IMG/VR virus record: IMGVR_UViG_3300025767_000135
Span: 1-22,692 of that record
Direction: 5' to 3' (one strand)
Length of the DNA stretch: 22,692 nucleotides
From: a virus
Part shown: one piece after another, positions 5,183 through 21,503 of the stretch
How the letters are laid out: the number at the start of each line of letters is the position of its first letter
How positions within the stretch are numbered: the stretch's first letter is position 1
Notes under the pieces: model-generated
Told to the model about the DNA's origin: nothing
What the model saw: only the letters and a program-made list of their open reading frames with translations
The model's database searches: none
Position numbers and translations under genes: made by a program

Positions 5183-5195
5183 TTTAAAATAATAC

Positions 5196-5224: not shown

Positions 5225-5255
5225 GTATGTATAGAAACGATAAGAGAGAATCACA

Positions 5256-5498: not shown

Positions 5499-5504
5499 TA
5501 ACAA

Positions 5505-5581: not shown

Positions 5582-5672
5582 TAGTTAAAGGGTTTTGTTC
5601 CCCTTGTAAAACAATTGAGCAAATGGTGCCCAGGATGACCTAAGCAGGTCCAAAAACTGCTTGATGTAATTT
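5582..5672 (+). other. Gene-free spacer with inverted repeats between Asp and Glu tRNAs
   Basis: 91 bases without a usable reading frame. Short inverted repeats are present: GTTTT/AAAAC or, alternatively, AAGGG/CCCTT near 5588-5612, and AAGCAG/CTGCTT around 5642-5662 with GTCCAAAAA in the loop. The loop resembles a Trp (CCA) anticodon loop, but no matching acceptor, D or T arm was found, so it is not called a tRNA. It may be a decayed tRNA or a processed spacer. Confidence 0.3.
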
Positions 5673-5747
5673 GTCCCGTTCGTCTATCGGTTAGGACGTC
5701 AGGTTTTCAACCTGAAAAGAGGGGTTCGATTCCCCTACGGGATGCCA
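5673..5747 (+). tRNA. tRNA-Glu (anticodon TTC)
   Basis: The acceptor GTCCCGT pairs with ACGGGAT (first pair G-T). The anticodon arm CAGGT-TTTCAAC-CTG gives TTC, the T arm is GGGGTTCGATTCCCC, the discriminator is G and CCA is encoded at 5745-5747. The order Glu then Ser, 6 bases apart, implies a shared precursor. Confidence 0.94.
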
Positions 5748-5753
5748 AGATGT

Positions 5754-5841
5754 GGACAGGTGGCTGAGTGGCCGAAAGCAGCGGATTACTAATCCGCCGA
5801 ACCGAGAGGTTCCGTGGGTTCGAATCCCACCCTGTCTGCCA
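5754..5841 (+). tRNA. tRNA-Ser (anticodon ACT)
   Basis: A class II tRNA of 88 nt. The acceptor GGACAGG pairs perfectly with CCTGTCT. The D arm has TGGCTGAGTGG, typical of Ser. The anticodon arm GCGGA-TTACTAA-TCCGC gives ACT (5788-5790). The variable arm is ACCGAGAGGTTC, discriminator G, CCA at 5839-5841. Shape and D arm say Ser. The anticodon ACT reads AGU directly and AGC only if A34 is edited; the normal bacterial tRNA for these codons is GCT. The A at position 34 is unusual. Confidence 0.9.
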
Positions 5842-7242: not shown

Positions 7243-8667
7243 ATGACTAATTCTATAAAATTACTCCTTGTATCATCTGTTATGGTATTAACTGGTTGTA
7301 CTACTAGTGTTAACAGTTCTACATCCGATGTGCCTGATGCTATTGCTGGCATTCATATCAAAAACAATGTGGATTATAATGTCTTTCCAAATACCAATCC
7401 AGGTAGAATAAAAACACGATATTGGTGGACACCATCTTATGTATATCAAGATTTTAATAATGATGGTATTCTTGATGTGTTGTATAATGGGTCTATGAAT
7501 CCTACCAATTTAAATAAGACTGGTGACGGTGTTGGTGGACTATGCAGTGGCGACCGTTGTGAAGGTGAAGGGTTTGGACCAAGTGTACTATTTGGATCCA
7601 GAGATGGCAAATTTAAAGACCGTTCGATGCTTTTTGTAGACAATCGCAGTAAGCCAGGCCAACAGATAGTATCCAAAGAACTTGTTGCCGACTTTAATAA
7701 CGATGGTATATTAGACTACTGGGTTGCTGATACTGGCATGGGAACATATCACGGACACAGAGATAGTTATTTCCTAAGTAATTCAGATGGTAAATGGTAT
7801 GAAAGTTCGGCAACACATCTAAGCAAACCAAACTATGCAGTATATAATCACGGCGGTTCATTTGGTGATATCGATAATGATGGTGATTTAGATGTAGTTA
7901 TGACACAGCAGGATAAGAATGGAGGAGCAAGATTATCTTGTTGGATGAATAATGGCAAAGGGTTTATGACAGTTAAAGGGTGTGGAAATGTACATGCATA
8001 TGTCATTGAACTTGGCGATATGGATGGCGATGGCGATTTAGATATTGTCCATTCAGGTCATGAATTTGGTTACTCAACTCCAACTGGAATTATGTATAAT
8101 AATGGATATGGTAAGTTCGGAAGAACCAATCGTTTACCACAAGACGGCACAAAAAAATGGGGAACAGTTCCCGAAGTTTCAATGTGGGATTTAGACTCTG
8201 ACGGCGACTTGGATATTGTTTTGTCGAGAGCGGGACACTTATATGTAGGTGTTGCTGTAGATATTTTAGAAAATAAAGGCAATGGCAAGTTCAAATCCAA
8301 TCTAATTAAAATTATCAATGCGCCCAAGACATTTAAACCGGTACACGAAGGAAACGAATGGAACTATCACTTTAATCGAATTCGTTTTAACGATGTAGAT
8401 GGTGACGGAGATAAGGATATTACATTTACATCGAATGGTTCTCAAACTGGTAGGTTTAGACACAAAGTTAATGGGGCTATGATCCAAAATAACGGGAATA
8501 TGAATTTTAAATATTTACCGCAAAGTGATCAACAAAATCCAATTACATATATGCCTTCATCAAAATTTGTATTTTATGGAAAAGATAAAAATGCTAAAGT
8601 ATATAGTGGCAGAGAAGTTAAGGTACTTACTTTGGAAGAACTACGAAAAAAATTAAAAAAGAAATAA
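7243..8667 (+). CDS. Predicted lipoprotein with VCBS/FG-GAP beta-propeller repeats
   Basis: A 474-residue protein. The start MTNSIKLLLVSSVMVLTGC is a lipoprotein signal peptide with lipobox LTGC (C19 lipidated), predicting export and anchoring to a membrane. Six Ca-binding motifs of the type DxDxDGxxD occur at residues 70-78, 150-158, 209-217 (DIDNDGDLD), 259-267 (DMDGDGDLD), 316-324 (DLDSDGDLD) and 384-392 (DVDGDGDKD). These are typical of VCBS/FG-GAP blades in integrin-alpha-like propellers, which bind proteins or glycans. Four cysteines (101, 106, 233, 247) could form disulfides. The C-terminus is basic. A good Shine-Dalgarno (AAAAGGA) precedes the ATG. A lipoprotein of this kind is unusual in a lytic phage. 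It could change the surface of the infected cell (for example superinfection exclusion) or be a host gene carried along; both are inference. Confidence 0.75.
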   Translation: MTNSIKLLLVSSVMVLTGCTTSVNSSTSDVPDAIAGIHIKNNVDYNVFPNTNPGRIKTRYWWTPSYVYQDFNNDGILDVLYNGSMNPTNLNKTGDGVGGLCSGDRCEGEGFGPSVLFGSRDGKFKDRSMLFVDNRSKPGQQIVSKELVADFNNDGILDYWVADTGMGTYHGHRDSYFLSNSDGKWYESSATHLSKPNYAVYNHGGSFGDIDNDGDLDVVMTQQDKNGGARLSCWMNNGKGFMTVKGCGNVHAYVIELGDMDGDGDLDIVHSGHEFGYSTPTGIMYNNGYGKFGRTNRLPQDGTKKWGTVPEVSMWDLDSDGDLDIVLSRAGHLYVGVAVDILENKGNGKFKSNLIKIINAPKTFKPVHEGNEWNYHFNRIRFNDVDGDGDKDITFTSNGSQTGRFRHKVNGAMIQNNGNMNFKYLPQSDQQNPITYMPSSKFVFYGKDKNAKVYSGREVKVLTLEELRKKLKKK

Positions 8668-8673
8668 AAAAGT

Positions 8674-8700
8674 AAGAAAGGGAGCATTACTCCCTTTCTT
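8674..8700. terminator. Bidirectional intrinsic terminator between convergent genes
   Basis: A perfect 11-bp stem AAGAAAGGGAG/CTCCCTTTCTT with a CATTA loop. It is followed by TTTATT on the plus strand and by CTTACTTTTTT on the minus strand. It sits 6 bases after the lipoprotein stop and 1 base before the phoH stop, so it can end transcription from both sides. Confidence 0.88.
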
Positions 8701-8701
8701 T

Positions 8702-9460
8702 TTATTCGTCCTCTCCGTATATTTTAAGAACTTCTACAACTGCTGGATGTCTTTCTACATCCATCATATCAAAACGTGAAATAGCAATATGATTCATATT
8801 TGCGATTTCATATCTTCTGGTAAGTTCCATAAAGTCTGAAAGACCGTTTTCTGAAAAACCTCTGTCATGTTGTTTCAAGTCACCAGTAACAATCATTTTA
8901 GTATTGTTACCAATTCTAGTTAATAGCATTTTCATTTGTGACTTTGTAGCGTTCTGCATTTCATCTGCAATGATCCAAGCGTCCTCAAACGTTCGGCCAC
9001 GCATGTATGCAAGTGGTGCGATTTCTATGATGTTTTCTGCCAACATCGATTCAATTTCAGCCACCGAAAAATGCTTTTCGAATATATCAAATATAGGTCT
9101 TGTCCATGGCGCCATTTTTTCATTTAGGTCACCTGGTAAGAACCCGTGTTGTTCGTCCACTGAAACTGCCGGACGAGTAATAACAATTTTTTTCACCTCT
9201 CTTTCCATGAAAGCTTTAACGCCCATAAGAGTACATAAAAGTGTTTTACCAGTACCAGCAGGACCAATTGCGAAACATATATTATTTTCTGGATCTGCTA
9301 ATTGATACAAGTAATCTTCTTGTGCAATATTACGGGGCAGTATTGTTGGGATTGTTTTTTTTCTTAATTGTATAATACCGCTACGTTGACCATCAGGATG
9401 ATAAGGTTCACGGTTATTTGTTTTAGATTGTTTATTGTCAACACGTTTTTTTCGTGCCAT
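8702..9460 (-). CDS. phoH: PhoH-like ATPase
   Basis: A 252-residue protein read on the minus strand, the only clear minus-strand gene in the window. The PhoH core is plain: Walker A GPAGTGKT (residues 66-73), ITRPAVS at 94-100, EQHGFLPGDLNEK (103-115) and Walker B WIIADEMQN (162-170), followed by the sensor-like VTGDLKQ (191-197). PhoH proteins are RecA-fold ATPases linked to phosphate starvation in bacteria, and PhoH is a common auxiliary gene of marine phages; its biochemical role is unsettled, with RNA binding or unwinding proposed. AAGGAGG lies 7 bases before the ATG, the best ribosome site in the window. A 7-bp hairpin lies in its leader (9494-9512). It converges with the lipoprotein gene at a shared terminator. 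Confidence 0.92.
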   Translation of the reverse strand: MARKKRVDNKQSKTNNREPYHPDGQRSGIIQLRKKTIPTILPRNIAQEDYLYQLADPENNICFAIGPAGTGKTLLCTLMGVKAFMEREVKKIVITRPAVSVDEQHGFLPGDLNEKMAPWTRPIFDIFEKHFSVAEIESMLAENIIEIAPLAYMRGRTFEDAWIIADEMQNATKSQMKMLLTRIGNNTKMIVTGDLKQHDRGFSENGLSDFMELTRRYEIANMNHIAISRFDMMDVERHPAVVEVLKIYGEDE

Positions 9461-9493
9461 ATTATAGCCTCCTTAGGAAGGGTTTTTTCAGAG

Positions 9494-9512
9494 TGAGACA
9501 CTTCTTGTCTCA
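9494..9512 (-). other. Perfect 7-bp hairpin in the phoH leader
   Basis: TGAGACA-CTTCT-TGTCTCA, 34 bases upstream of the phoH start. No T-run follows on either strand, so it is not a normal terminator. It may be a leader hairpin or an operator-like palindrome. Confidence 0.4.
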
Positions 9513-9580
9513 ATATTACTTATCAATAATTTTTTTGAATAGTGTATTACTATTACATATTGACAAAAAAGTTTTTATGT

Positions 9581-9588
9581 GATAAATA
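9581..9588 (+). promoter_or_regulatory. T4-type late promoter-like box
   Basis: GATAAATA, 7 of 8 bases of the T4 late consensus TATAAATA, 24 bases before the ATG at 9613. A TTGACA at 9560-9565 lies 17 bases before TAAATA (9583-9588), so the site could also work with host sigma70. It opens the plus-strand run of lysis, chaperone and structural genes. The same GATAAATA octamer recurs twice at 15139-15161. Confidence 0.55.
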
Positions 9589-9612
9589 CATTTAACAAAT
9601 GGAGTTTTACCA

Positions 9613-10125
9613 ATGTCTGAACTAAAACACGATGATATATTAGATAACCTACGTGATGTTAATAAAAACAACACACTATTAGATATTCTTATGGAATTTG
9701 AAAAAATCCTAGAAGATACCGGTATGTATGCTTATAAAAACTGGGATACAGGCGAAATCGTTGAAGGACCAAATCTTTCACGCTATTGGCTACATATTAA
9801 ATTAATGTACCCATATATGGGCATGCCTGACCCTAAGGCCGGATTGCGTTTAGAAAAAATTGGTTGTGAAGTTAAATTTAATAAAAGTGTATTGAAAACT
9901 TCTATTGTTCCTAAATCACCGAATGATCTTGATAGTGACGGACTACCAAAATTAAATAGTGATAAAATCTGGACAGTTGATATATGGATGCCTAGAAAAT
10001 ATATTGATGAATATACGGATGAGCAAATTAAAGTAGGTTCAGAAGAAATTGATGTGTCAGATTTAAATGATGCATATACTTCTGGATTAGATGATAATAC
10101 AAATATCAATAGCCAGGAGATTTAA
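9613..10125 (+). CDS. Conserved T4-like phage hypothetical protein
   Basis: A 170-residue protein with TGGAG 8 bases before the ATG. Its first half, NKNNTLLDILMEFEKILEDT, then YAYKNWDTGEIVEGP, with RYWLHIKLMYPYMGMPDP, matches a pattern I recall from conserved hypothetical proteins in marine T4-like myoviruses, where it lies near structural genes. A Trp-containing strand KIWTVDIWMPRKYID follows. The last 35 residues are acidic and probably disordered. There is no membrane segment or known catalytic motif. It is first in the late plus-strand block, 2 bases from the next gene. A virion or assembly role is inferred from position only. Confidence 0.72.
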   Translation: MSELKHDDILDNLRDVNKNNTLLDILMEFEKILEDTGMYAYKNWDTGEIVEGPNLSRYWLHIKLMYPYMGMPDPKAGLRLEKIGCEVKFNKSVLKTSIVPKSPNDLDSDGLPKLNSDKIWTVDIWMPRKYIDEYTDEQIKVGSEEIDVSDLNDAYTSGLDDNTNINSQEI

Positions 10126-10127
10126 AT

Positions 10128-10541
10128 ATGAAATTTACACAAATAAATGAAGGCGTAAAACATAATGATTTGAAATCTCTAGTAACGAAAAAAGTTACTG
10201 TAGCAGATTTTGAACCTAAGGTTGGCACAGTTGATGATGTAACAGTTCTTGCATTTTATGTCACTGATGAAAGACCTGCTGATGATCTTGCACGTTTTAT
10301 AGAGCGCGGAATAATTGAAATTCTTGATACTGAGGTTTCACCGACTGCTGATGAAGATGGAATGTATTTGGTATTTGTTGAAATTAAAAACGAAGACTTA
10401 ATGAGAAACGTATTGTTGATATTAGATGATGTAACACGTTTAGTAGATATTTCAGAATGGACTATTGAGTTCTATAATGGCCCATCAATTGTTATTTCAT
10501 CAGATGATATTGATAAATGGTTAAAAAAGACAAAAAAATAA
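10128..10541 (+). CDS. Conserved phage hypothetical protein
   Basis: A 137-residue protein with AGGAG 9 bases before the ATG, starting 2 bases after the previous stop. The core DDLARFIERGIIEILDTEVSP, then GMYLVFVEIKN and ISEWTIEFYNG, looks like an alternating alpha/beta domain. I recall related proteins next to the preceding gene in other marine T4-like phages, which suggests a conserved pair. It has no membrane segment, signal or active-site motif. The C-terminus is lysine-rich (KWLKKTKK). Function unknown. Confidence 0.72.
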   Translation: MKFTQINEGVKHNDLKSLVTKKVTVADFEPKVGTVDDVTVLAFYVTDERPADDLARFIERGIIEILDTEVSPTADEDGMYLVFVEIKNEDLMRNVLLILDDVTRLVDISEWTIEFYNGPSIVISSDDIDKWLKKTKK

Positions 10542-10544
10542 CAA

Positions 10545-10611
10545 ATGATTAGTTTTCGATGTAGAAAATATAACTAAAGGAATAGGAATAGTAACTGCAA
10601 CATTAGCAATG
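10545..10611 (+). other. Apparent +1 frameshift at the 5' end of the next gene
   Basis: The next gene has no ATG, GTG or TTG in frame between the upstream stop (10546-10548) and 10609, yet the frame is open from 10549 and codes a sensible N-terminus. An ATG at 10545 starts ATG ATT AGT TTT CGA and stops at 10575. Slipping from TTT (10554-10556) to TTC (10555-10557) joins it to GAT GTA GAA AAT, giving MISFDVENITKGIGIVTATL. Loss of one T from the TTTT run would have the same effect. Confidence 0.55.
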
Positions 10612-11022
10612 CTAGGCGGCGGTTATACCTTTTTGGATAAAATATCTTCGAAACAAATACTCGAATGGGCACCAGAACATTTCTCAGTATCTGATGGCGA
10701 TGCATATGGTACTTTCGACGTAATAGTGGCGAGAGAAAAGTTCAGGGATGATTGTTCAGTTGAAGGATTCAGACTTGAAGTTAAAGATAGTAAGTATCAT
10801 GTTCACACTGCAATTCCGAGTATTACTAAATTTAGTGGGCCGGCTAGTGATAAAATAGATAAATTTGGTTTCAGTTTTACAATAAGTGAAAACCATAGCC
10901 ATCAGATTGCTGAAGGCAACGCAATACTTTTAGCTCACATTGATTATATGTGCCCAGAAGGTCCAACAGTTGTAAATTACCCAGATACCGAAAATTTGAT
11001 TTTCAATATAACAAACGAGTAA
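10609..11022 (+). CDS. Conserved phage protein with N-terminal membrane anchor, start uncertain
   Basis: From the ATG at 10609 the product is 137 residues, but the real N-terminus probably lies at 10545, reached by a +1 shift, giving about 158 residues. The longer form puts GIGIVTATLAMLGGGYTFLDK near the start as a complete membrane helix; the ATG at 10609 would cut this helix in half and has no ribosome site. The rest (ILEWAPEHFSVSDGDAYGTF, FDVIVAREKF) looks like a beta-rich domain outside the membrane. I recall the WAPEHF...DG.A pattern from conserved T4-like marine phage proteins of unknown role. Four Cys are spread thinly, if any pair. It lies just upstream of the spanin-like pair, so a lysis or envelope role is possible. 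Confidence 0.65.
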   Translation: MLGGGYTFLDKISSKQILEWAPEHFSVSDGDAYGTFDVIVAREKFRDDCSVEGFRLEVKDSKYHVHTAIPSITKFSGPASDKIDKFGFSFTISENHSHQIAEGNAILLAHIDYMCPEGPTVVNYPDTENLIFNITNE

Positions 11023-11026
11023 TAAA

Positions 11027-11491
11027 ATGTTCAGTATAAAAAAATATCTAATTATTGCAGCGGCCGTCGCAGCGGCTGGGTTTGCATTATGGCAATACTA
11101 CACTTATACACAAAATCAAATACGAATATATGCAGAAAATGCTGCCAAGTCTGAAATGGCCCAAAAAGCAACTCAGGCTGCATTAGATAAAACGCAAGCG
11201 GATTTAAAGCGTATTAAAATAGAATTTGATAAAGCAAACACAAAATTTAAAGCAGCCGATAATCGTGTTCGTAACTTAGAAAATAAATTAGCAAAACACG
11301 AATTAGATTTTCTAGCAGCTAGAAGACCAAAAGATGTTCAAAAAATCATTGACAAAGCTAGTGATAATATGTTAAGATGTTTAGAGATAGTAGGTGGGTC
11401 GCCACTAACAGAGGATGAAATTAATGCTACAAAACCTTCACAAATCAATAATGAATGTTCTGATATTGCTAACCCTAACTATAAGCCTTAG
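11027..11491 (+). CDS. Spanin-like inner-membrane subunit (i-spanin candidate)
   Basis: A 154-residue protein with a short basic start (MFSIKK), one membrane helix (residues 7-25, LIIAAAVAAAGFALWQYY in part), then a long coiled coil with Lys, Ala and Glu (about 35-100) and a short tail with two Cys (118, 143). This is the layout of Rz-type i-spanins, which sit in the inner membrane and reach across the periplasm to join an outer-membrane lipoprotein for the final lysis step. The overlapping lipoprotein gene that follows is the expected partner. No spanin family signature exists at sequence level, so the call rests on layout and context. The ribosome site is weak. Confidence 0.6.
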   Translation: MFSIKKYLIIAAAVAAAGFALWQYYTYTQNQIRIYAENAAKSEMAQKATQAALDKTQADLKRIKIEFDKANTKFKAADNRVRNLENKLAKHELDFLAARRPKDVQKIIDKASDNMLRCLEIVGGSPLTEDEINATKPSQINNECSDIANPNYKP

Positions 11492-11831
11492 TGCTTGCAG
11501 TAGAACACCAAGAGAACTAGAATATAGTTCACAGCCAATTGATAGACCAGAGTTAATCCTACCAGAATCTGAAGCCCTTACTCTTTCAAAAATTGATTGG
11601 GTAATTATCACGCCAGACAATGCCGCAGAAGAATTCGCTAAAATAAAAGCAAGTGGAAAACCTGTTGTCGTGTATGCACTGACTAATGTTGGATACGAAG
11701 CACTTGCATTAGATATGTCAAAAATTCTTAAAAAACTAAGTGAACAAAAAGCAATCATAGTTGCATATGAAGACTACTATTCAAATGGCGATGAAACTAG
11801 TATTGACAATATTTTACCTGATTCACAATGA
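11424..11831 (+). CDS. Lipoprotein overlapping the i-spanin candidate (o-spanin candidate)
   Basis: Candidate ATGs are 11415, 11424 and 11451. AGAGG at 11410-11414 is 9 bases before 11424, and that start keeps the positive n-region MLQNLHKSIM ahead of the hydrophobic core; 11451 would lack any positive charge. The lipobox is LSAC with C25, so the mature protein is lipid-anchored with about 110 periplasmic residues. It overlaps the upstream gene by 68 bases in another frame, as Rz1 genes overlap Rz. At this length it is larger than typical Rz1, and it has a folded-looking part (KIDWVIITPDNAAEEFAKI, then PVVVYALTNVGYEALALDM). It could instead be an unrelated phage lipoprotein. It overlaps the J-domain gene by 4 bases. 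Confidence 0.58.
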   Translation: MLQNLHKSIMNVLILLTLTISLSACSRTPRELEYSSQPIDRPELILPESEALTLSKIDWVIITPDNAAEEFAKIKASGKPVVVYALTNVGYEALALDMSKILKKLSEQKAIIVAYEDYYSNGDETSIDNILPDSQ

Positions 11832-12205
11832 CCTCGTATGAACTTCTAGAGATTAATAAATACTCTAGTGAAGATGAAATCCGTAATGCATATAGAAAAT
11901 GTTTATTAAAAGCACATCCAGATCATGGTGGCTCAGTAGAAGAATTCGATGCTGTACGACTTGCATACATAAAGGTAAAAAATAAATATGTAAAAAATAG
12001 AATATTAACTGTAAATATGACTGTTAAATTAGATGCGTTAGAATTAAAATATTGTCAAGGCGAAACATCATCATTTATATATGATGACATGATAACATTT
12101 GATGTATTTGTTCCAAATAACACGCAGTTTAATGATACAGTAGTTATTAATAACATACTCCCAAACACTATACTAAAAATTAAATTTAAGGAATACAATG
12201 GATAA
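11828..12205 (+). CDS. J-domain protein (DnaJ-like)
   Basis: A 125-residue protein starting with a J domain: SYELLEINKYSSEDEIRNAY (helices I and II), the invariant HPD at 30-32 in KAHPDHGGS, and helix III with FDAVRLAYIKV. The J domain stimulates ATP hydrolysis by Hsp70 (DnaK). The Gly/Phe and zinc-finger regions of DnaJ are absent. The remaining part (residues 60-125) is beta-rich and has a PNNTQFNDTVVI segment like the DnaJ C-terminal client domain, where VPPGT..G..I is usual. It could recruit host DnaK to phage substrates or to the ClpA-like unfoldase encoded next. It is coupled by a 4-base overlap upstream and an 8-base overlap downstream. Confidence 0.85.
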   Translation: MTSYELLEINKYSSEDEIRNAYRKCLLKAHPDHGGSVEEFDAVRLAYIKVKNKYVKNRILTVNMTVKLDALELKYCQGETSSFIYDDMITFDVFVPNNTQFNDTVVINNILPNTILKIKFKEYNG

Positions 12206-14444
12206 TTATAACAATCGGGTTAGTTGGGCATTAGACCAGTCATTAATAAAGGCTGCGGCACTTTCACATGAATATGTAACATTGGAACATTTATTGTACG
12301 TATTAATGGACGAGCAAGATGTACTAGAACTATTGGGCAAAATGGGTTGCAGCCATGCCAATATTATCCGAGACCTAGAAGAAAACCTAGCACAACGAGA
12401 TGACATCACAGTTGAAAAATTAGATGGCATGGGACCTAGACAAACCCTAGCACTTGATCGTGTTTTTAATCGTGCCGTAACACAAGTTATTTTTACTGGC
12501 AGAAAGCAGATGTTTTGCAAGGATCTCATTGTATCACTATTAAGTGAAACATCATCCCATGCTGCATATATCTTAAAGAAAAATGGGGCGAGTAGAGATA
12601 AAGTAGTTAAGATTATTGAAAAAGATTTCTATGATGCATTTGCAAATTCAATAAACCGTGGCACGCCACGTGGTATGGCTGGTGGACCTGACAGTCAAGG
12701 GCAAATAAAATTTGAAGATTTCTGTGAGAACTTAAATATAAGTGCATCAGAAGGAAAGATTGATCCAGTAATCGGACGTTCCGAAGAAATTCTTGAAATC
12801 TCTGAAGTATTAGCAAGACGAAAAAAGAATAATGTTATTATTGTAGGCGAACCAGGTGTTGGTAAAACTGCTATTGCAGAAGGGTTGGCAAGAAATATTG
12901 TAAACGATGAATGTCCTGATATGCTTAAAGATAAAATTGTTTATTCTTTAGATGTAACTGCTATGGTTGCAGGCACCAAGTATCGTGGTGAGTTTGAAGA
13001 ACGTGCTAAAATAGTTTTTGAACAATTATCTGCAAAAGATAACGTAATCTTATTCATTGATGAAATTCACATGATAATGGGCGCAGGCTCAGCGGGTGGT
13101 TCAAATATTGATATTGCAAATCTTCTGAAACCACTATTAGCAGGTGGTAAACTACTTTGCATGGGCGCAACTACAAGTGAAGAATATAGAGAGAATTTCG
13201 AAAAAGACCGTGCATTACAACGCAGGTTTCAAAAAGTTGTAATTGAGCAGCCAAGTAAAGAGGATACAAAATTAATTGTCAAGGGTCTTAAAAAATATTA
13301 TGAAGAGTTCCATGGCAATGAATATGATGATGATGCACTTGATTATGCTGTAGATTTGGCTGAGCGTTATATGCATGGTAAATATAATCCAGACCGTGCG
13401 ATTGATATTATTGATGTTGCCGGTGCTAGAACTAAGTTACATAAATCAACCGGCAAAATTGATCGAGGCGCAGTTGAACAAGCGGTATCAAAGATTACTC
13501 GTATTCCATTGGATATGATTGATGCAAAAGAAAATACAAATTATGCAAACTTAGAACACAATATACGGCAGAAACTATTTGGACAAAACAAAGCAATCAG
13601 TACTTTAGTAGAATCTATTTTAGTTGCTAAGTCTGGTATGCGTCCTACCAACAAACCCATTGGCAGTTTCTTATTTGTTGGTCCAACAGGAACAGGCAAG
13701 ACTGAATTATGTCGCCAACTTGCAAATAACTTAGATGTAACACTTCGCAAGTATGACATGAGTGAATATATGGAACAACACTCAGTATCTAAATTAATCG
13801 GTGCGCCTCCGGGTTATGTAGGACACGCAGAAGGTGGTGCTGGTAGTGGCAAACTCATTAATGATGTAGAAGAAACTCCAAACTGCATTATTCTATTAGA
13901 TGAAGTTGAAAAGGCACATCCAAGTGTTATGAACCTACTTCTTCAAGTGATGGATGACGGCAGATTAACTAGTTCAACGGGCAAGGTTGCAGATTTTAGT
14001 AATGCTATTGTTATTATGACATCCAATTTGGGTGCGTCACAAAAATCCAAGATGGCAATTGGCTTCAGTAACGACAATAATGATGCATCTTTACAGGCAG
14101 TGAAGAAATTCTTTTCTCCTGAATTTCGTAATCGGTTAGATGCTATGGTTGAGTTTGTCGCTTTGCAGCGTGAACATATTGATATGATTGTTGATAAGTC
14201 AATCAATGAACTAAATGAAATGATGACTGATAAAGGTGTAGTAATTGAATTAACACTCGGCGCTAAGTCATGGATGCGTGAGCGTGGCTATATCCCAGAT
14301 ATGGGAGCAAGACCGTTACAACGTGTTATTAATGATTATATTAAGAAGCCTTTATCGAAAGAAATTTTATTTGGACAACTAATTAATGGTGGTAAAGTTA
14401 CTGTACGAGTTGCCAATGATAAGTTAGAATTTACATATGGTTAA
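12198..14444 (+). CDS. clpA: ClpA-like AAA+ unfoldase
   Basis: A 748-residue protein, close to the 758 of E. coli ClpA. The N-domain (residues 1-145) has two Clp_N repeats. AAA module 1 has Walker A GEPGVGKT (217-224) and Walker B LFIDEIH (285-291). Module 2 has Walker A GPTGTGKT (495-502), the pore-loop GAPPGYVG (535-542), Walker B ILLDEVE (565-571) and FRNRLD (643-648). The long ClpB M-domain is missing, so it is ClpA- rather than ClpB-type. IGF at 621-623 sits where ClpA has IGL and ClpX has IGF, the loop that docks on ClpP. All ATPase motifs look intact. It should unfold proteins in the cytoplasm and possibly deliver them to host ClpP. No clpP lies in the window. It overlaps the genes on both sides by 8 bases. 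Confidence 0.93.
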   Translation: MDNYNNRVSWALDQSLIKAAALSHEYVTLEHLLYVLMDEQDVLELLGKMGCSHANIIRDLEENLAQRDDITVEKLDGMGPRQTLALDRVFNRAVTQVIFTGRKQMFCKDLIVSLLSETSSHAAYILKKNGASRDKVVKIIEKDFYDAFANSINRGTPRGMAGGPDSQGQIKFEDFCENLNISASEGKIDPVIGRSEEILEISEVLARRKKNNVIIVGEPGVGKTAIAEGLARNIVNDECPDMLKDKIVYSLDVTAMVAGTKYRGEFEERAKIVFEQLSAKDNVILFIDEIHMIMGAGSAGGSNIDIANLLKPLLAGGKLLCMGATTSEEYRENFEKDRALQRRFQKVVIEQPSKEDTKLIVKGLKKYYEEFHGNEYDDDALDYAVDLAERYMHGKYNPDRAIDIIDVAGARTKLHKSTGKIDRGAVEQAVSKITRIPLDMIDAKENTNYANLEHNIRQKLFGQNKAISTLVESILVAKSGMRPTNKPIGSFLFVGPTGTGKTELCRQLANNLDVTLRKYDMSEYMEQHSVSKLIGAPPGYVGHAEGGAGSGKLINDVEETPNCIILLDEVEKAHPSVMNLLLQVMDDGRLTSSTGKVADFSNAIVIMTSNLGASQKSKMAIGFSNDNNDASLQAVKKFFSPEFRNRLDAMVEFVALQREHIDMIVDKSINELNEMMTDKGVVIELTLGAKSWMRERGYIPDMGARPLQRVINDYIKKPLSKEILFGQLINGGKVTVRVANDKLEFTYG

Positions 14445-15147
14445 ACATGTCGAGTCTACAAAATTATTTTACAAGAAATATCCTTATAAGATAGCATATA
14501 AACGGCTGTATGGATTTCCGTCAAAAGAAATTATAGATTCGTATGTAAACCGAACTGGTTATGGTTGGTGGTTCGATTATCCGACAACACCAGAAGACAT
14601 GATTGCTAGATCAAATTGTATAAGATTTCTTAGAAGTAAACCGGGCACTAAATTCACAAATAGTTCAATGACACATGTTTATTTCGAAGATAAAGATGTA
14701 TTTGAACTTGCAGCAACACGTTACGGCAAGTTACAAAAAGAAATTCATATTCCCTTTATAGATAATTTATCAGAAACATTGGACGCACAGGCAGATAATG
14801 TTGAGATAAAAAATAGTTTATATTATAAAAAGTTTAGATATAAAATTAATTTAAAATATAATAATAATCTTCATACATACTTGGGACCATTGCTTATTGA
14901 CACATATTCAAGTAATGATAATTACTTATTGAATACTAACGTGCGCAAGTTTGCAAACGAAGATACTACTATACAAATAAATAATGCACCGTTTAGTTAT
15001 AAATTTAGGCACAGTACATATAATACATACACTATATACTGCAGAGAGTATATTGATATGCAACTAATGGCATTTGTTGCCAGTGAGAATATTACCAAAA
15101 TTACCAAAGCAATACTGATACGTGAAATTTGCCAATCAGATAAATAG
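14437..15147 (+). CDS. Hypothetical Tyr/Lys-rich protein with internal repeats
   Basis: A 236-residue protein whose ATG overlaps the clpA stop by 8 bases. It is rich in Tyr, Lys and Asn. The phrase LFYKKYPYKIAYKRLYG (residues 10-26) recurs as LYYKKFRYKINLKYNNN (about 127-143) and more weakly as FSYKFRHSTYNTYTIY (about 192-207), suggesting three copies of a basic beta-hairpin motif. This could bind nucleic acid. There is no membrane segment or known family. The stop overlaps a late-promoter-like box. It shares the transcript of the chaperone genes, but nothing ties it to their function. Confidence 0.68.
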   Translation: MVKHVESTKLFYKKYPYKIAYKRLYGFPSKEIIDSYVNRTGYGWWFDYPTTPEDMIARSNCIRFLRSKPGTKFTNSSMTHVYFEDKDVFELAATRYGKLQKEIHIPFIDNLSETLDAQADNVEIKNSLYYKKFRYKINLKYNNNLHTYLGPLLIDTYSSNDNYLLNTNVRKFANEDTTIQINNAPFSYKFRHSTYNTYTIYCREYIDMQLMAFVASENITKITKAILIREICQSDK

Positions 15148-15161
15148 TTTATAGATAAATA
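15139..15161 (+). promoter_or_regulatory. Two tandem T4-type late promoter-like boxes
   Basis: GATAAATA at 15139-15146 and again at 15154-15161, each 7 of 8 bases of TATAAATA and identical to the box at 9581. They lie 29 to 51 bases before the ATG at 15190 and would drive the fibre gene block. The first covers the end of the preceding gene. Confidence 0.58.
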
Positions 15162-15189
15162 TCATTAATGTAAACTAAAAGGATATAAA

Positions 15190-15360
15190 ATGGCGAGTAT
15201 TAAAGAGGAAATTCTAGTAATCAGAGTATCACAGATTTCTAAATCAGGCGAAAACAAATCAAATCTTATTAATGACGAAGTTTCACTAACAATTGAACAA
15301 GTTGTTGCTGAACTTATTGGCGGTGCTGCGGTTGTCGAAGTTGAAACTCAAGCAGAATAA
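15190..15360 (+). CDS. Small hypothetical protein, 56 residues
   Basis: A short frame with AAAAGGA 6 bases before the ATG and tandem late-type boxes upstream. The product (MASIKEEILVIRVSQISKSG, then NDEVSLTIEQVVAELIGGAA) looks like a beta-hairpin followed by a helix and ends acidic. The leader shares a 17-base block with the leader of the lipoprotein gene at 7243. The next gene starts 9 bases later. No family is recognised. Position suggests a minor virion or assembly protein expressed with the fibres. Confidence 0.65.
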   Translation: MASIKEEILVIRVSQISKSGENKSNLINDEVSLTIEQVVAELIGGAAVVEVETQAE

Positions 15361-15369
15361 GGAATAATA

Positions 15370-15738
15370 ATGGCACGTAAAACAATAACTCTTCTAGAAA
15401 ATTCAGGAACAAATCTTGATCTAGTAGGCAATGCAGTTCCCGGTGATAGTTATTATGGCTTCACTGATGGACTTCATACTGTGGCTGTTTATGGCCAAGG
15501 ACTAATTGGAAGAGTTCGTATTCAAGGTACACTTGCGACTAATCCAACAGAAGACGATTGGTTCAGTATATTAATTGATGGTATGCCATTTAAAGATTAT
15601 AATGAATTTACGGGTGTAGAAGGATATACATTTACTGCAAATTTGGTATTTTTGAGAGCTACATTAGATAGAACATCACTGGGACAAACTGATATCAATA
15701 CAGTTGGATATATCGATAAGATATATCTAAATTATTAA
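15370..15738 (+). CDS. Small virion structural protein (fibre or neck-associated)
   Basis: A 122-residue protein with AGGAATAAT before the ATG. It is beta-rich and lacks Cys, like many phage structural proteins. The core LIGRVRIQGTLATNPTEDDW, then GYTFTANLVFLRATLDRT, is a pattern I recall from a conserved structural protein in T4-like marine phages, usually next to large fibre genes. VRIQGTL...DW.SI is consistent with a small jelly-roll or adaptor domain. It starts 9 bases after the 56-residue gene and ends 11 bases before the giant fibre gene. It may join a fibre to the virion. The structural class is fairly sure, the exact role not. Confidence 0.65.
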   Translation: MARKTITLLENSGTNLDLVGNAVPGDSYYGFTDGLHTVAVYGQGLIGRVRIQGTLATNPTEDDWFSILIDGMPFKDYNEFTGVEGYTFTANLVFLRATLDRTSLGQTDINTVGYIDKIYLNY

Positions 15739-15749
15739 GGGGCAGAGAA

Positions 15750-18700
15750 ATGAGTATAAACGCAACACCTTTTAATCCAACATTTAAATTAGTTGGTAAT
15801 TTACAAGAAGATCAAGTTCTTGTATACAGCACTTCGGAAGGTGCATTCGTTAATGCCGCTGGATCAGGTTCAAGTGGAGCAGGTGGCGGAATAGATTCAG
15901 TATCACATACTGGTTTAGGAAATCAATTAGGTTCAGTTGTAGGATCATCACTTGTATTACAAACAATAACAGCAGGTACAAATGTCGTAATAACAGATAG
16001 TGGCAATGGTCTTGTGATATCGGCCGACCTATCAGAAACCCTTCAAACCGGTACAAATATAGGTAATGGAAGTGCAGTATTATCAAGTGTAGAACCATCA
16101 ACCGGTCTATTCACTTTTAAGAGTATAGCAGTTGGTACAGGTCTCATTATTGCAGATGATGGCGAAACAATAACACTATCAGCAAATACTGACACAACAC
16201 AATTCATAACAAAATCAAATAATCTATCAGATCTACCCGATGTTTCTATTGCAAGAACAAATATTGGTGCAATTAGTCAAGCAGATGGCGATGCCCGCTA
16301 TCTAAGATTAAATGCCAATTCTACTCCTACCATAGACAATACGTTTAGTTTGGGTAGCAGTGATTTCAGATATAATGATATATATGCTAGTACATTTCAC
16401 GGTACAGCAGTTCTTGCTGATAACTTAACAATTACCGGATCAAATAATGGTGATGTTCTTACTTGGAATGGTAACACCTGGGTTGCTGCACCACAAGGGG
16501 CAGGACAAAATAATGAAAATCCAACACCACAAACTCTTGTAATAAATGACCGAACACTATCTATAACTGGTGGTAATTCAATTACGCTACCAGAACCAGT
16601 CGAAGTTACCAATGTTGTGAAAACAGATGGTCACTCAGTTCCAAGTTTAGATAAAAATTGGGATATTGGTAGTGAGAATCTAAGGTTCAGTGATATCTAC
16701 GCAGAAACATTCCATGGTACAGCAGTTCTTGCTTCTAACTTGGATATATCTGGCACAGCAGGCGATGTTCTAACATATAATGGTGCATCTTGGGTATCAG
16801 GCGCTCCATCACAACAACAATTAGAGTGGGATGGAAATGTACTAAGTATTACTGATGGCAACAGTGTAAGTTTGAACTTAGGAAATTATGCAACAACTAT
16901 TGATTTGGCTACTGCGATTGGTAATATTGATCATCCACTGGGTGATTGGAATACGTTACAAAACAAACCAACAATCCCAACAGATGTAAGCGACCTAACA
17001 GATACAACAAATCTACTTGATCAAGTCACTGCATTTAGTGGCGATTATAATGATCTGACAGGCGCACCAACTATTCCAACAGATGTAAGTGACCTAACAG
17101 ATACAACTAATCTACTAGATCATGCAACTCCGTTCAGTGGTGATTACAATGATCTTACAAACAAACCCACAATATCAGAATCATTTAGTGGTGCGTATGC
17201 AGATTTAACAGGCGCTCCAACAGATATAAGTGAGTTTACAGACACAACCAATCTACTTGCAGAATCACAAGTACTATCTTTTTCTAATAATCTTATTAGC
17301 ATCTCAAATGGCAATTCTGTAGATTTATCAGAATATGCTAACGTTGATGCACAACAGATAACTTTAGACGGCACCGAATTAACTATCTCAGGTGGTAATA
17401 CAATCGATCTTGTTTCACTGTCTACTTCAGTTGATCTGACACCATATGCAACACAAGATTTTGTTGTAAATACTATCAACTCTTTGGGTGATAGTGACGG
17501 ACAAGAGCTTACATTCGAAGGTACCATACTTTCAATTTCAAGTGGTTCAGGAAATGGAAACTCAGTCGATCTCGTATCACTTGTAGATGCCGCTACTGAT
17601 TTAACTGGATATGCGACTGAACAATGGGTAGACGATAAACTAGCAGCGAGACTTGATGCTGATTATCAAACCTTATCAATAGTAGATGACAAATTATTAA
17701 TATCAAACGGTAACTCAATAGATTTATCAAGTCTTGGCGGCGGCGGTGGTTCTGCACAGACACTTTCAATTGTTGGTAATGAAATTACTATCTCAGGTGG
17801 CAATAGTATCGTAGTCCCAGTATTCACTGATGTTGATAACTATATTAAATTAGATGGCCATAGTGCACCATCAGTTGATAATCAATGGGATATTGGTAGT
17901 GCTGAATTACGATTTAATGATATATATGGCGAAAGATTTCACGGAACTGCTGTTTTAGCAGATAATCTTACAGTATCAGGTGTTACTGGTGATGTACTAA
18001 CATACAATGGCGCAGCATGGGTTGCATCAGCACCAACAGGTGGAGGTGGCGGCGGCGAAGGCTTACCACAATCTCTTGCGCTAGACGGAACACTACTATC
18101 AATTTCAAGTGGGAATACAGTTGATCTAGTTGCCCTCGGCGGAAATATTGATGGCTTAACATCAAATAGTGGAACGTCTACATTAACACTAGACGCAGGA
18201 TGGAATTTTGTTCCAGAAACAGATGCATTGCAAAGTCTGGGTTCTGCTACAAATCGCTGGACAGATGTTTACATTGATGATTCAACTATTAATATAGGTT
18301 CTAATACACTTGAAGCAGATAGTGATAGTGATTTAGTATGGAATGGTAATAAATTAGCCAAACTATCAGATATTCCTGCAACGCAAACATTTACATATGA
18401 TCATGCAACAAGACTATTAGATGTTTCTGATGGGCAGGCAGTTGATTTAACTGAATTATCAGTAGTCCCAATAACAGATGATCCACCAGCATCTCCTAAG
18501 CCTGGAGAATTATGGTTAGATGCATTAAATCTAAGTTTAAACATCAACTACGAAATCGGTGGTTTTCCAATGTGGATAGAGTTAAATCCACAGGCAGCAG
18601 CACCAGATTATCAACAGTTAACATTAAATGGTACTGAATTAAGTATTGATAATGGCAATACTATAGATTTATCTGGTCTAGGTGGTGGCGAGACTACAAC

Positions 18701-21503
18701 ATTTACCGAAGCATACAATGCAGGCGACTGGGACTTTAATTTAATTCCAAAAACTACAGCAGCATTTGACATTGGTAGCCCAGATAAATTAGTGCGTCAC
18801 CTTTATATTAGTGGTAATTCAATTTTTATTGGTGATGAAGGAAATACACTACGTTCTACTGGAACTTCATTGTTTTACAACGACACGGATTTACAAGATT
18901 ATAATGAATTAGCAAACAAACCAAATATTCCACAGGATATATCAGACCTAACAGATAGTACTGGTATAATTCAAGCAGCGAATACAGATAGTCAAAGTTT
19001 AACACTTGTTGGATCAAGTTTACAAATATCTGGTGGTAATTCTGTAGATTTGTCAGGCCTATCAGGTGCAAGCACGTGGGCGGATTTAACAGATACTCCA
19101 ACTACTCTAGCAGGTTATGGCATCACTGATGGTGGTGCAAGCACATGGGATGAATTAACAGGTACTCCAACAACACTAGCAGGTTATGGCATCACTGATG
19201 GTGGATCAGGTGCCTGGGAAGATATCACAGGTACTCCAACAACATTAGCAGGTTATGGCATCACTGATGGTGGATCAGGTGCCTGGGAAGATATCACAGG
19301 TACTCCAACAACACTAGCAGGTTATGGAATTACTGACGCACCTGCTGATATAAGTGATTTAACTGACACTGGTGGACTACTAGGTGGTGGTGCAACTCTA
19401 TTGGGTGATTTGACTGATGTAAGTTCTGCAGCAGCAAGCACTGGCCAAGTACTTAAATGGAATGGTTCATCGTGGGCACCAGCATCTGATTCAACTTCAT
19501 CAGGTGGTTCTGGAATATCATTATCTGATCTAAGTGTATCAAACGCAACAGCAAATGGTAATGAGGCACAGTTAGAATATAATAATATAACTGGTACATT
19601 TACACTAACACCTGCAGTAGCAAGAACAACAATCGATGATTTAGATGACGTTACTATAACTTCAACTGCAGATGGACAAGTATTAACCTACAATAATACA
19701 AGTGGTGATTGGGAAAATCAAGATATACCTGGCGTCTTTATAGGCGGCGTAGAACCTACAAATATAGTTCCAGGAGGACTTTGGTTTGATGACAGTAATC
19801 TAGGACTTTATATCAACTATGATATTGGTTTAGGTTTTGCTACTTGGTTACAATTAAACCCTCCTGCGTTTTCAGGCGAATATGATGATCTTTCAAATAA
19901 ACCGATAATACCTGCTGATGTGAATCAATTGACAGATACTGACGGACTACTAGGTGGTGGTGGTGGTGGTGGTGGTATTGCGCTATCAGACCTCAGTGTG
20001 TCAAATCAAGCAATTGGAAGTGCTTCTGGTTCTTTACAATATAGCGCACAGACAGGTGTATTCACATTTATTCCGCCAGATATATCATCAGAAACACGCT
20101 CATCTATAAGTGTAAACACTGTAACTAAATCAGGTGGCGGTTCATTAACATTCAATTCAAGCGATGGTGTATTTACGTATGCACCAGCCGATATGGCAAG
20201 TGCAGAAGTTACTCCACAAGGGGATAATGGCTCAATTCAATATAACGATAATGGTAGTTTGGGCGGCGTTGCAGGCTTTGCATATGATGCGAGTAGTGCC
20301 GGCACACTAATTATTGGTCCAAATGGCGGCGGTAAGATCAAAACAAATTATTGGGTGGGAGCAGATAATGCTACACAACCTATGGCAATTCAAAGTGACG
20401 ATGGTACTGGTACCAAATCAACACACATTGCATTTACAAATTCATCAGGTTTACAAACAACTACATTTAGTGGAACAGTTAATTTTACTGGTAACACAAT
20501 TAAGGGATTAGAACTAACTGATCTTGATATTAATGATGGGACATCAGGACAAGTTCTAACAACTGATGGTTCAGGTAACTTCTCATTCTCTACTGTATCA
20601 GGTGGTGGCGGAGGAGTTACATCATACAATGATTTAACAGATAAACCTACAATTCCGAATGATGTTTCTCAACTAGGAGATAGTAATGGTCTTCTTGCTC
20701 ATAACGTATATACAGCAGGAACAGGTATTAATGTAAATAATCTTGTTGTTTCAATAGACTCTAATTTAGGTGATTTAAACAACGTTTCTTCTAGTGCTCC
20801 TGCATTAGGACAATTACTAGCATGGTCTGGTACACAATGGCAACCAACTGCTCCAGCAGCAGCAAATCTCTCAAGTTCATCTATTGGCGAATTAAACAAT
20901 GTTGATATTACAGGTGTTCAAACAGGTCAATTCTTAGAATGGGATGGTAGTAAATTCGTCCCAGCGAGTGGCGGAACTGTAGATTTATCAACAGAATCGC
21001 TCGGTGATTTAGGCAATGTCGATGCAACTGTTCCAACGAATGGTGATGTTCTTACATGGGATGCTACAAGTAGCGAATGGGCACCAGCAGCACCGGCAGC
21101 AGGCGGTGGTGGTGGTGGCGGTAGTTCCACAGAATATTTCAAACTTAACTATGCGCCAAATGGTTCATTGTCTAGTATTTCGAATACAACAAGTGGAATA
21201 TCAGCAAATATTGAGGATGCAGATTCAGGCGAAGTTAGTGTGACATTTAGCGGATATTCATTCCCACCATCAAACGTACTAGTTTATGGATATGTCAGAC
21301 TGACAAATCAGTATATAATTATGCCACTTAATAAAGATATGACTACTCGTACTCTAAACGCAGGCGGATCTCCTGGATCACCAATTGCATTTGGCGCACT
21401 AGGATCACTGGAAATGAAATTAGTATTAAGAGAGGCAGACACAGGCGCGGGAAGAACTTTCGGACAACCTACACATGCATGGATCGTGGTGTCAATGATA
21501 TAA
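15750..21503 (+). CDS. Giant repetitive tail fibre protein
   Basis: A 1917-residue protein with AAGGGG 10 bases before the ATG. It is Gly, Ser, Thr, Asp and Asn-rich with almost no Cys. Repeated modules include: the FHGTAVLA..L unit (about residues 216, 320 and 730), each followed by GDVLTWNG or GDVLTYNG..WV; LTISGGN.IDL-type beta-helix turns; tandem 33-residue DVSDLTDTTNLL units; tandem 23-residue TPTTLAGYGITDG units; and two W.D..L.L.INY.IG...W..LNP units. Poly-Gly hinges lie near 685-700 and 1400-1410. TPTTLAGYGITD is a known motif of phage tail fibres. The last 125 residues differ in composition and look globular, probably the tip domain that binds the host receptor or trimerises the fibre. 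It should be a trimeric adhesion fibre. No chaperone gene is seen beside it. Confidence 0.88.
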   Translation: MSINATPFNPTFKLVGNLQEDQVLVYSTSEGAFVNAAGSGSSGAGGGIDSVSHTGLGNQLGSVVGSSLVLQTITAGTNVVITDSGNGLVISADLSETLQTGTNIGNGSAVLSSVEPSTGLFTFKSIAVGTGLIIADDGETITLSANTDTTQFITKSNNLSDLPDVSIARTNIGAISQADGDARYLRLNANSTPTIDNTFSLGSSDFRYNDIYASTFHGTAVLADNLTITGSNNGDVLTWNGNTWVAAPQGAGQNNENPTPQTLVINDRTLSITGGNSITLPEPVEVTNVVKTDGHSVPSLDKNWDIGSENLRFSDIYAETFHGTAVLASNLDISGTAGDVLTYNGASWVSGAPSQQQLEWDGNVLSITDGNSVSLNLGNYATTIDLATAIGNIDHPLGDWNTLQNKPTIPTDVSDLTDTTNLLDQVTAFSGDYNDLTGAPTIPTDVSDLTDTTNLLDHATPFSGDYNDLTNKPTISESFSGAYADLTGAPTDISEFTDTTNLLAESQVLSFSNNLISISNGNSVDLSEYANVDAQQITLDGTELTISGGNTIDLVSLSTSVDLTPYATQDFVVNTINSLGDSDGQELTFEGTILSISSGSGNGNSVDLVSLVDAATDLTGYATEQWVDDKLAARLDADYQTLSIVDDKLLISNGNSIDLSSLGGGGGSAQTLSIVGNEITISGGNSIVVPVFTDVDNYIKLDGHSAPSVDNQWDIGSAELRFNDIYGERFHGTAVLADNLTVSGVTGDVLTYNGAAWVASAPTGGGGGGEGLPQSLALDGTLLSISSGNTVDLVALGGNIDGLTSNSGTSTLTLDAGWNFVPETDALQSLGSATNRWTDVYIDDSTINIGSNTLEADSDSDLVWNGNKLAKLSDIPATQTFTYDHATRLLDVSDGQAVDLTELSVVPITDDPPASPKPGELWLDALNLSLNINYEIGGFPMWIELNPQAAAPDYQQLTLNGTELSIDNGNTIDLSGLGGGETTTFTEAYNAGDWDFNLIPKTTAAFDIGSPDKLVRHLYISGNSIFIGDEGNTLRSTGTSLFYNDTDLQDYNELANKPNIPQDISDLTDSTGIIQAANTDSQSLTLVGSSLQISGGNSVDLSGLSGASTWADLTDTPTTLAGYGITDGGASTWDELTGTPTTLAGYGITDGGSGAWEDITGTPTTLAGYGITDGGSGAWEDITGTPTTLAGYGITDAPADISDLTDTGGLLGGGATLLGDLTDVSSAAASTGQVLKWNGSSWAPASDSTSSGGSGISLSDLSVSNATANGNEAQLEYNNITGTFTLTPAVARTTIDDLDDVTITSTADGQVLTYNNTSGDWENQDIPGVFIGGVEPTNIVPGGLWFDDSNLGLYINYDIGLGFATWLQLNPPAFSGEYDDLSNKPIIPADVNQLTDTDGLLGGGGGGGGIALSDLSVSNQAIGSASGSLQYSAQTGVFTFIPPDISSETRSSISVNTVTKSGGGSLTFNSSDGVFTYAPADMASAEVTPQGDNGSIQYNDNGSLGGVAGFAYDASSAGTLIIGPNGGGKIKTNYWVGADNATQPMAIQSDDGTGTKSTHIAFTNSSGLQTTTFSGTVNFTGNTIKGLELTDLDINDGTSGQVLTTDGSGNFSFSTVSGGGGGVTSYNDLTDKPTIPNDVSQLGDSNGLLAHNVYTAGTGINVNNLVVSIDSNLGDLNNVSSSAPALGQLLAWSGTQWQPTAPAAANLSSSSIGELNNVDITGVQTGQFLEWDGSKFVPASGGTVDLSTESLGDLGNVDATVPTNGDVLTWDATSSEWAPAAPAAGGGGGGGSSTEYFKLNYAPNGSLSSISNTTSGISANIEDADSGEVSVTFSGYSFPPSNVLVYGYVRLTNQYIIMPLNKDMTTRTLNAGGSPGSPIAFGALGSLEMKLVLREADTGAGRTFGQPTHAWIVVSMI
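16980..17177 (+). repeat. Two tandem 99-bp repeats in the fibre gene
   Basis: Two in-frame units (16980-17078, 17079-17177), each coding 33 residues beginning TDVSDLTDTTNLLD and containing FSGDYNDLT. A partial, diverged third unit follows to about 17260. Differences are mostly silent. Confidence 0.8.
19065..19340 (+). repeat. Four tandem 69-bp repeats in the fibre gene
   Basis: Four in-frame units starting at 19065, 19134, 19203 and 19272, each 23 residues with TPTTLAGYGITD. Units 3 and 4 differ at only one base over their first 56 or so bases, so they look recently duplicated and could change number by recombination. Confidence 0.87.

Follow-up and report, generated by a model that had tools for sequence, protein, structure and literature searches.

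The IMG/VR virus record IMGVR_UViG_3300025767_000135 (22,692 nt of a large marine phage, analysed whole and called the window below) carries a gene for a short J-domain protein (125 aa) followed by a gene for a ClpA-like AAA+ unfoldase (748 aa), and the two open reading frames (ORFs) share 8 nt, as a first-pass annotation had stated and as the ORF coordinates confirm (Table 1). On balance we lean towards the view that this pair belongs to a ClpA/ClpP protease owned by the phage, whose substrates would come from ClpS and from a J protein recruiting host DnaK, and not to a device for capturing host ClpP. The parts of such a system are already in print, and the coupled, near-complete phage system appears to be new. 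The window is a fragment, and the absence of a gene there says nothing about the whole phage.

A J-domain gene coupled to a gene for a ClpA-like unfoldase

The ClpA-like protein matched phrog_4871 with an E-value of 1.2e-254 and the NCBIfam ClpA model TIGR02639 with 862 bits in a single stretch (residues 6–737); because the equivalog cut-off of 993 was missed, we call it ClpA-like (phrog_4871) and not a ClpA equivalog. It has a Clp N-terminal domain (PF02861, E 3.6e-7), both of its AAA+ rings keep Walker A and Walker B motifs that are conserved in relatives, and no coiled-coil middle domain lies between the rings, the ClpA model matching in one stretch and the ClpB model in two. An AlphaFold2 (AF2) model built from 39 sequences (mean predicted local distance difference test score, pLDDT, 81.2) aligned structurally to chains of ClpAP with Z about 34 and about 46–49% identity over both rings. 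In an alignment to PDB 6w1z (654 bits), the tripeptide IGF at residues 621–623 falls on the loop that carries IGL in ClpA of E. coli. Motifs, Pfam search and alignment thus uphold the earlier description of a ClpA homologue with both ATPase sites, a Clp_N domain and IGF at the docking position.

The J protein matched Pfam DnaJ over residues 3–47 (E 6.6e-10, 39.4 bits, cut-off 27.8), and its HPD motif, the motif that stimulates DnaK, is present in all 72 J proteins found upstream of clpA in viral relatives. Its AF2 model (15 sequences, mean pLDDT 87.6, predicted template modelling score 0.52) shows J-domain helices at residues 3–7, 15–29 and 37–53 followed by a beta domain at about 60–122, and Foldseek searches with this model matched DnaJ of Thermus thermophilus and, in 5nro, a J domain bound to DnaK. 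In a profile comparison the beta domain aligned with C-terminal domain I (CTD I) of long phage J proteins; a G/F linker and CTD II are missing, so that the class B architecture is incomplete. J proteins are 125–147 aa long in the window's clade versus 229–308 aa in relatives outside it, and all 21 long ones that were scanned contain both DnaJ and DnaJ_C. Judged from sequence and model, the window's protein looks like a shortened class B J protein made of a J domain (residues 3–53) and a single CTD-I-like domain (residues 58–122).

The pair was followed through the best 80 of 188 confirmed metagenomic viral relatives. Of the 76 informative relatives, 72 have a J gene upstream of clpA (contigs L019, L022, L048 and L049 end too early to judge), and counted by clusters at 70% identity the figure is 18 of 19; the four without it (L064, L065, L066 and L068) form one lineage. 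Because these 72 keep the pair, it is more than chance. The gap between the genes is at most 30 nt in 67 of the 72 pairs, the genes overlap in 24, and the pair persists even where ClpA is only about 45% identical to that of the window. Among isolates, J stands directly upstream of clpA in PA5oct and Atu_ph07, and in Phosso a peptide deformylase gene intervenes; the gene neighbourhoods of these three pairs differ, the pair of PA5oct, too, lying between structural genes. The first-pass annotation had asked whether J-domain and clpA genes always occur together in related phages; what stands is a strong linkage, with no J gene beside clpA in one lineage and in five isolates described below. Of 80 bacterial clpA loci, three have a J ORF in their flanks and none has it directly upstream (two are far upstream and one, at L189, directly downstream); at least 50 have ClpS no more than 1.5 kb upstream, a lower bound as the profile was phage-derived. 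The phage J–clpA pairing occupies the place of this bacterial clpS–clpA pairing. The J ORF of L189 (6308–6628) is on a contig binned as Marinimicrobia and may be bacterial or come from a mis-binned phage. In L012 (1123–3068), an ORF resembling a PP-loop ATPase (weak, E 6e-4) lies between J and clpA, together with a second one that by eye resembles a radical-SAM enzyme.

The two genes could also be mere neighbours in a late operon, the J protein acting by itself on host DnaK, for example against a chaperone-dependent defence or by stabilising sigma-32 as Rki does. ClpA is indeed retained in phages without J; defence by bNACHT25 requires DnaJ according to the available part of that report (PMC12169576); and Rki of phage RB43, whose paper does not mention ClpA in the portion available (PMC3486835), binds host DnaK in a J-domain-dependent manner and so sets a precedent for the action on host DnaK that is predicted for the window's protein. 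We nevertheless regard this explanation as very unlikely, given that the pair is intact across widely diverged ClpA sequences and in PA5oct, Atu_ph07 and Phosso despite their differing neighbourhoods, and that a Pfam DnaJ search of 30 records gave a single J match above cut-off in each of the 24 J-containing genomes. The breadth over which the pair is kept likewise weakens a neutral explanation by simple co-transcription with late genes.

IGF is present in 83 of the 88 phage sequences that span the site, namely the window, all 79 spanning metagenomic relatives (L018 ends short of it), Atu_ph07, Phosso and PA5oct. All three residues are fixed in the 39-row ClpA alignment (39/39), while the flanking positions 615–620 and 624–633 show 5 to 13 different letters each, and this invariance inside a hypervariable loop supports the predicted docking on ClpP. 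The AF2 model places IGF in a coil (618–629) of low confidence, as would be expected for a mobile loop; a position off an exposed loop, which the first-pass annotation had named as speaking against docking, is not what the model gives. The five exceptions are isolates, RaK2 and Vibrio 2.275.O with IGV, SCTP-2 with IGY, Munch with MNM and GAP32 with LGM, and none of them has a J gene beside clpA or, by Pfam search, anywhere in the genome. In the ClpA tree RaK2, Munch, GAP32 and the Vibrio phage form one clade and SCTP-2 is placed elsewhere on a long branch, so that the loop may have changed in only two events. Because the J-less metagenomic lineage retains IGF, loss of J and change of the loop are not strictly linked. 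ClpP of RaK2, Munch and GAP32, the three members of this clade that were aligned, has Gly at the residue matching Leu114 of the E. coli ClpP pocket; altered loop and altered pocket would fit a co-change in one clade.

ClpP, ClpS and Hsp20 in related phages

The first-pass annotation had noted that no clpP is seen and had suggested that the phage may redirect host ClpP. ClpP was indeed not found in the 22,692-nt window, but this does not extend to the family. From the 80 relatives the 50 longest records were searched for ClpP, ClpS and Hsp70, and 25 of these have ClpP and 12 have ClpS. In the window's own clade (ClpA at least 67% identical) ClpP was found in 5 of 16 records, the 11 misses being fragments of 50–139 kb, and among the six viral records of at least 200 kb (G003, G005, G010, G022, G030 and G041) it was present in all six, with ClpS in four. 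Isolate genomes with this ClpA have both (ClpP 8/8, ClpS 8/8), although these isolates are related to each other and the counts are not independent events; PA5oct and Paride, phages of Pseudomonas aeruginosa, each gave matches to ClpA, ClpP and ClpS. G001, whose ClpA is 91% identical to that of the window, encodes a divergent ClpP2, ClpS, Hsp20 and ClpX within 155 kb, and G003 (73% identical, 342 kb) holds J, ClpA, ClpP1, ClpP2, ClpS, Hsp20, a GroES-like protein and peptide deformylase, as well as ClpX-like pieces split at the boundary of the sequence piece analysed.

Capture of host ClpP, in which the phage ClpA would dock by IGF on the protease of the host and redirect it to chosen targets, was demoted as the sole reading once ClpP and ClpS appeared in relatives. 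IGF is the commonest tripeptide in bacterial ClpA (63 of 80 sequences), so the loop would fit host ClpP, and beside the lack of ClpP in the window, G001 and G002, which are nearest to it, show only ClpP2, whose pocket resembles that of ClpP1 less closely. However, these two records are fragments of 155 and 146 kb whose ClpP1 could sit in the missing part, a host-like ClpP1 is present in G003 and G005, and the isolates with this ClpA type carry ClpP and ClpS throughout. We therefore consider host capture unlikely; the premise that the phage lacks ClpP and so needs that of its host is overturned for the family, although this particular phage may still use it.

Catalytic Ser and His aligned in all 23 phage ClpPs compared (25 loci less L107 and L122, which gave no motif match), and an Asp lies near the expected place in each as judged by eye. 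PHROGs annotates the phage ClpP-like matches as head-maturation proteases. ClpP1 of G003 we read as ClpP and not as a mere head-maturation protease, as it scored 258 with the ClpP subfamily model NF001368 (cut-off 249) and 85.6 with the head-protease model (cut-off 120); its score with the equivalog TIGR00493 was 237 (cut-off 309). ClpP2 was below both cut-offs, at 109 for NF001368 and 65.9 for the head protease. ClpP1 adjoins gp25-like baseplate genes (named by eye), and ClpP2 (L097 1995–2681, L099 1995–2681 and L102 1881–2522) has a proline-rich N-terminus and adjoins a DNA primase gene. The phage ClpX at L172 2242–3504 (G001 82242–83504, minus strand; 566 bits) has an IGF of its own at residue 265; after clpX in G001 come IF-3-like and bS21-like ORFs (by eye) and then hsp20 and clpS, and the order in G003 is identical. 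In-frame stop codons (TAA, TGA) within the ClpP-like frames of Lak-B1 (511011–511439) and LR756504 (146269–146691) may be recoding or decay.

Hsp20 was searched in 31 records. Of the 12 viral records with ClpS, all but G022 have it at a distance of 99–307 bases from ClpS, and it was not found in the 11 ClpS-less viral records searched. Among isolates it is near ClpS (<0.8 kb) in PA5oct, Atu_ph07 and Phosso and distant in SCTP-2, and it was not found in RaK2, Munch, GAP32 or the Vibrio phage. Peptide deformylase, confirmed by Pfam in L066, L076 and G003, stands between J and clpA in L074, L076 and L080 as in Phosso, and directly upstream of clpA in the J-less L064, L065, L066 and L068. The N-end-rule transferase Aat (PF03588), which would have spoken for a complete N-degron pathway, was found in none of 30 records. 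Hsp70/DnaK occurred in one of the 50 viral relatives (the record of L074), and its absence from the other 49 points to dependence on host DnaK; hence the prediction that the J protein acts through host DnaK is supported by this scarcity and by the constant HPD motif. The sole Hsp70 found is in two pieces (L085 and L086) about 1.15 kb apart, perhaps through an insertion or intron.

Proposed mechanism and its alternatives

In the mechanism that we propose, a hexamer of the ClpA-like protein would unfold proteins and dock by its IGF loops on a ClpP that is most likely encoded elsewhere in the phage genome. ClpS, which is phage-encoded in relatives, would deliver N-degron or misfolded substrates, and the co-translated J protein would recruit host DnaK via HPD, its CTD-I-like domain carrying misfolded or aggregated clients to DnaK; clients let go near ClpA would then be degraded instead of refolded. 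The genes, their coupling and motifs, and the presence of ClpP, ClpS and Hsp20 in relatives are observed; that ClpA docks on ClpP, that DnaK passes clients on to ClpA and that these end up degraded are steps that we infer. A protease is favoured over a free disaggregase because the loop is conserved and ClpA is accompanied by ClpP and, closely, by ClpS; recruitment of host DnaK is favoured because 49 of 50 viral relatives lack a DnaK and HPD is found in every J protein.

The companionship of ClpS was compared with 15 control phages picked by hand, 12 of them by accession and Lak-B1, LR756502 and LR756504 via a ClpP listing, which biases the ClpP rate upward. ClpS occurred in two, exactly those with a long ClpA-like match (LR756504 and LR756502), and in none of the 13 without ClpA, including four whose matches to TIGR02639 (E <0.001) were short and below 30 bits and which were counted as ClpA-less. 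ClpP occurred in 6 of the 15; without Lak-B1, LR756502 and LR756504 the counts were 3 of 12 for ClpP and 0 of 12 for ClpS. ClpS tracks ClpA, and ClpP is commoner.

Several points weigh against a phage-owned ClpA/ClpP protease. Besides the lack of ClpP in the window, 4 of the 13 ClpA-less controls have ClpP and G001 encodes ClpX, and for this reason ClpP may serve ClpX instead of ClpA. The J gene is not obligatory, since the lineage of four metagenomic relatives and the five isolates RaK2, Munch, GAP32, Vibrio 2.275.O and SCTP-2 have none beside clpA. The middle domain (M-domain) is the known DnaK contact of ClpB, and as ClpA has none, any hand-off from DnaK would be indirect and docking in the manner of ClpB is unlikely. 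Finally, the position of the genes among lysis and tail genes would also suit a role in virion assembly.

Such a role could be played without a protease, with J, host DnaK and phage ClpA acting as a disaggregase or as an assembly remodeller of late virion proteins. Bacterial DnaK and J cooperate with ClpB, and P1 RepA is remodelled by DnaK/DnaJ and also by ClpA. The J and clpA genes lie between genes for virion structure, spanins and a tail-fibre-like gene of 1917 aa, the PA5oct pair likewise having structural genes on its flanks, and Iyer et al., in the part of their text available, suggested that phage ClpA serves as a translocase or in assembly (PMC7824862). Yet the ClpA-like protein is missing the ClpB middle domain, IGF is invariant in J-bearing phages and would be needless for a ClpP-free machine, and ClpA co-occurs tightly with ClpS and ClpP. 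We hold this explanation to be quite improbable, and the disaggregase role in virion assembly that the first-pass annotation had offered as an alternative is, in its pure form, disfavoured by the invariant loop and by the ClpS/ClpP co-occurrence.

More tentatively, the phage-owned ClpA/ClpP protease could be one arm of a private quality-control pathway spread over several loci, in which Hsp20 and ClpS would gather damaged or N-degron clients, J would recruit host DnaK, ClpA and ClpX would feed one or two phage ClpPs, and the deformylase that adjoins clpA in some lineages would tie the pathway to the N-terminal state of newly made proteins; we find this possible but would not yet call it probable. 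If it is true, then with its IF-3-like and bS21-like proteins and tRNAs the phage would control both the synthesis and the removal of proteins, for example to rid a starved or dormant cell of host proteins or of its own misfolded ones.

With E. coli ClpAPS the system shares the two AAA+ rings, the Clp N-domain, the lack of a middle domain, the IGF/IGL loop and, in phage relatives, ClpP and ClpS; it differs in that the partner gene of clpA is J and not clpS, that phage clpS is coupled to hsp20, and that the phage-borne ClpA falls below the NCBIfam equivalog cut-off. The DnaK/DnaJ–ClpB bichaperone likewise links a J protein with a double-ring AAA+ unfoldase, but the window's unfoldase is of the ClpA type without the ClpB middle domain, 49 of 50 records hold no phage DnaK, and the docking loop points to proteolysis and not to refolding. 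For Agrobacterium phage Atu_ph07, the available part of the report annotates ClpA (gp292), DnaJ (gp293), ClpX, ClpB, ClpP and ClpS and suggests assembly, replication or clearance of aggregates for this set, the J–clpA pairing not being discussed there as a unit (PMC6102473); the pair is common to that phage and the window, although the Atu_ph07 J protein is long (J plus DnaJ_C). Moraphages, which are aquatic jumbo phages, have ClpA as a core gene, DnaJ commonly and Hsp20 in some, and differ in that eight encode DnaK; their chaperones are discussed as counter-defence or assembly aids, in a section 13 that is without ClpA, ClpS or the pairing (PMC12619734, in part).

In the portions of other reports available, ClpP, ClpS, ClpA and DnaJ of jumbo phages were noted separately by Iyer et al. 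(PMC7824862), clpX adjoins IF-3 in AP-J-162 with Hsp20 and DnaJ elsewhere in its genome (PMC11242549), and Al-Shayeb et al. reported phage peptide deformylase, with no Clp or DnaJ terms in that portion (PMC7162821). Clp, chaperones and DnaJ are unmentioned in the MIJ3 and PA5oct papers and in the available text of the Paride paper, according to which Paride replicates on dormant cells (PMC10761892). In the open-access literature (main texts), we found no paper on J–clpA coupling or on J, ClpA, ClpS, ClpP and Hsp20 as one system. Phages are usually viewed as borrowing or blocking host proteases; from the conserved set it would seem that jumbo phages come equipped with an unfoldase, a protease, an adaptor and a small heat-shock protein, and that DnaK alone is left for the host to supply, a dedicated J protein making the connection. 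The pair offers a testable example in which the Hsp100 partner of an Hsp40 would be degradative and not refolding, and since PA5oct and Paride, which carry the set, are in cultivation (J and clpA being shown adjacent in PA5oct), it can be tested in laboratory strains.

Neighbouring genes and other features of the window

Table 1. Positions of the J and clpA genes, their motifs and nearby or related genes in the window
Feature	Position	Strand	Basis
J-domain gene	11828–12205	+	Pfam DnaJ; AF2; Foldseek; profile match of C-terminal half to CTD I
HPD motif, residues 30–32	11915–11923	+	Invariant in J-protein alignment
ClpA-like AAA+ unfoldase gene, phrog_4871	12198–14444	+	PHROG, Pfam, NCBIfam, AF2, structural alignment
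J/clpA gene overlap, 8 nt	12198–12205	+	ORF coordinates
Ring 1 Walker A (GEPGVGKT), residues 217–224	12846–12869	+	Conserved in relatives
Ring 1 Walker B (FIDEIH), residues 286–291	13053–13070	+	Conserved in relatives
Ring 2 Walker A (GPTGTGKT), residues 495–502	13680–13703	+	Conserved in relatives
Ring 2 Walker B (LLDEVE), residues 566–571	13893–13910	+	Conserved in relatives
IGF tripeptide, residues 621–623, predicted ClpP-docking loop	14058–14066	+	Alignment, conservation
i-spanin (Rz-like) gene, upstream neighbour	11027–11491	+	phrog_739, E 2e-7
o-spanin-like lipoprotein gene	11415–11831	+	phrog_812, E 4e-5
236-aa ORF	14437–15147	+	8-nt overlap with clpA end; position kept in G001 and G003
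GroES/gp31-like co-chaperonin gene, separate locus	798–1130	+	phrog_931, E 1e-9; phrog_3188, E 5e-5

The stop codon of the o-spanin-like gene overlaps the start codon of the J gene (ATGA), and the i-spanin gene is probably not part of the J/ClpA machine; the overlapping i-spanin and o-spanin genes ahead of J (window 11027–11831) have the same order in G001 and G003. The GroES-like gene that the first-pass annotation had placed elsewhere in the window is present at 798–1130, but as GroES it is weak, with 17.2 bits in Pfam against a cut-off of 21.1, and phrog_931, annotated as head morphogenesis, fits it better. A promoter scan of positions 8600–15900 gave none above chance (39 observed versus 33.6 expected, standard deviation 6.5). 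The 1917-aa tail-fibre-like gene contains in-frame tandem repeats at 16967–17159 and 19068–19336, with units of 99 and 69 nt, and nine tRNA genes lie on the plus strand at 3423–5841.

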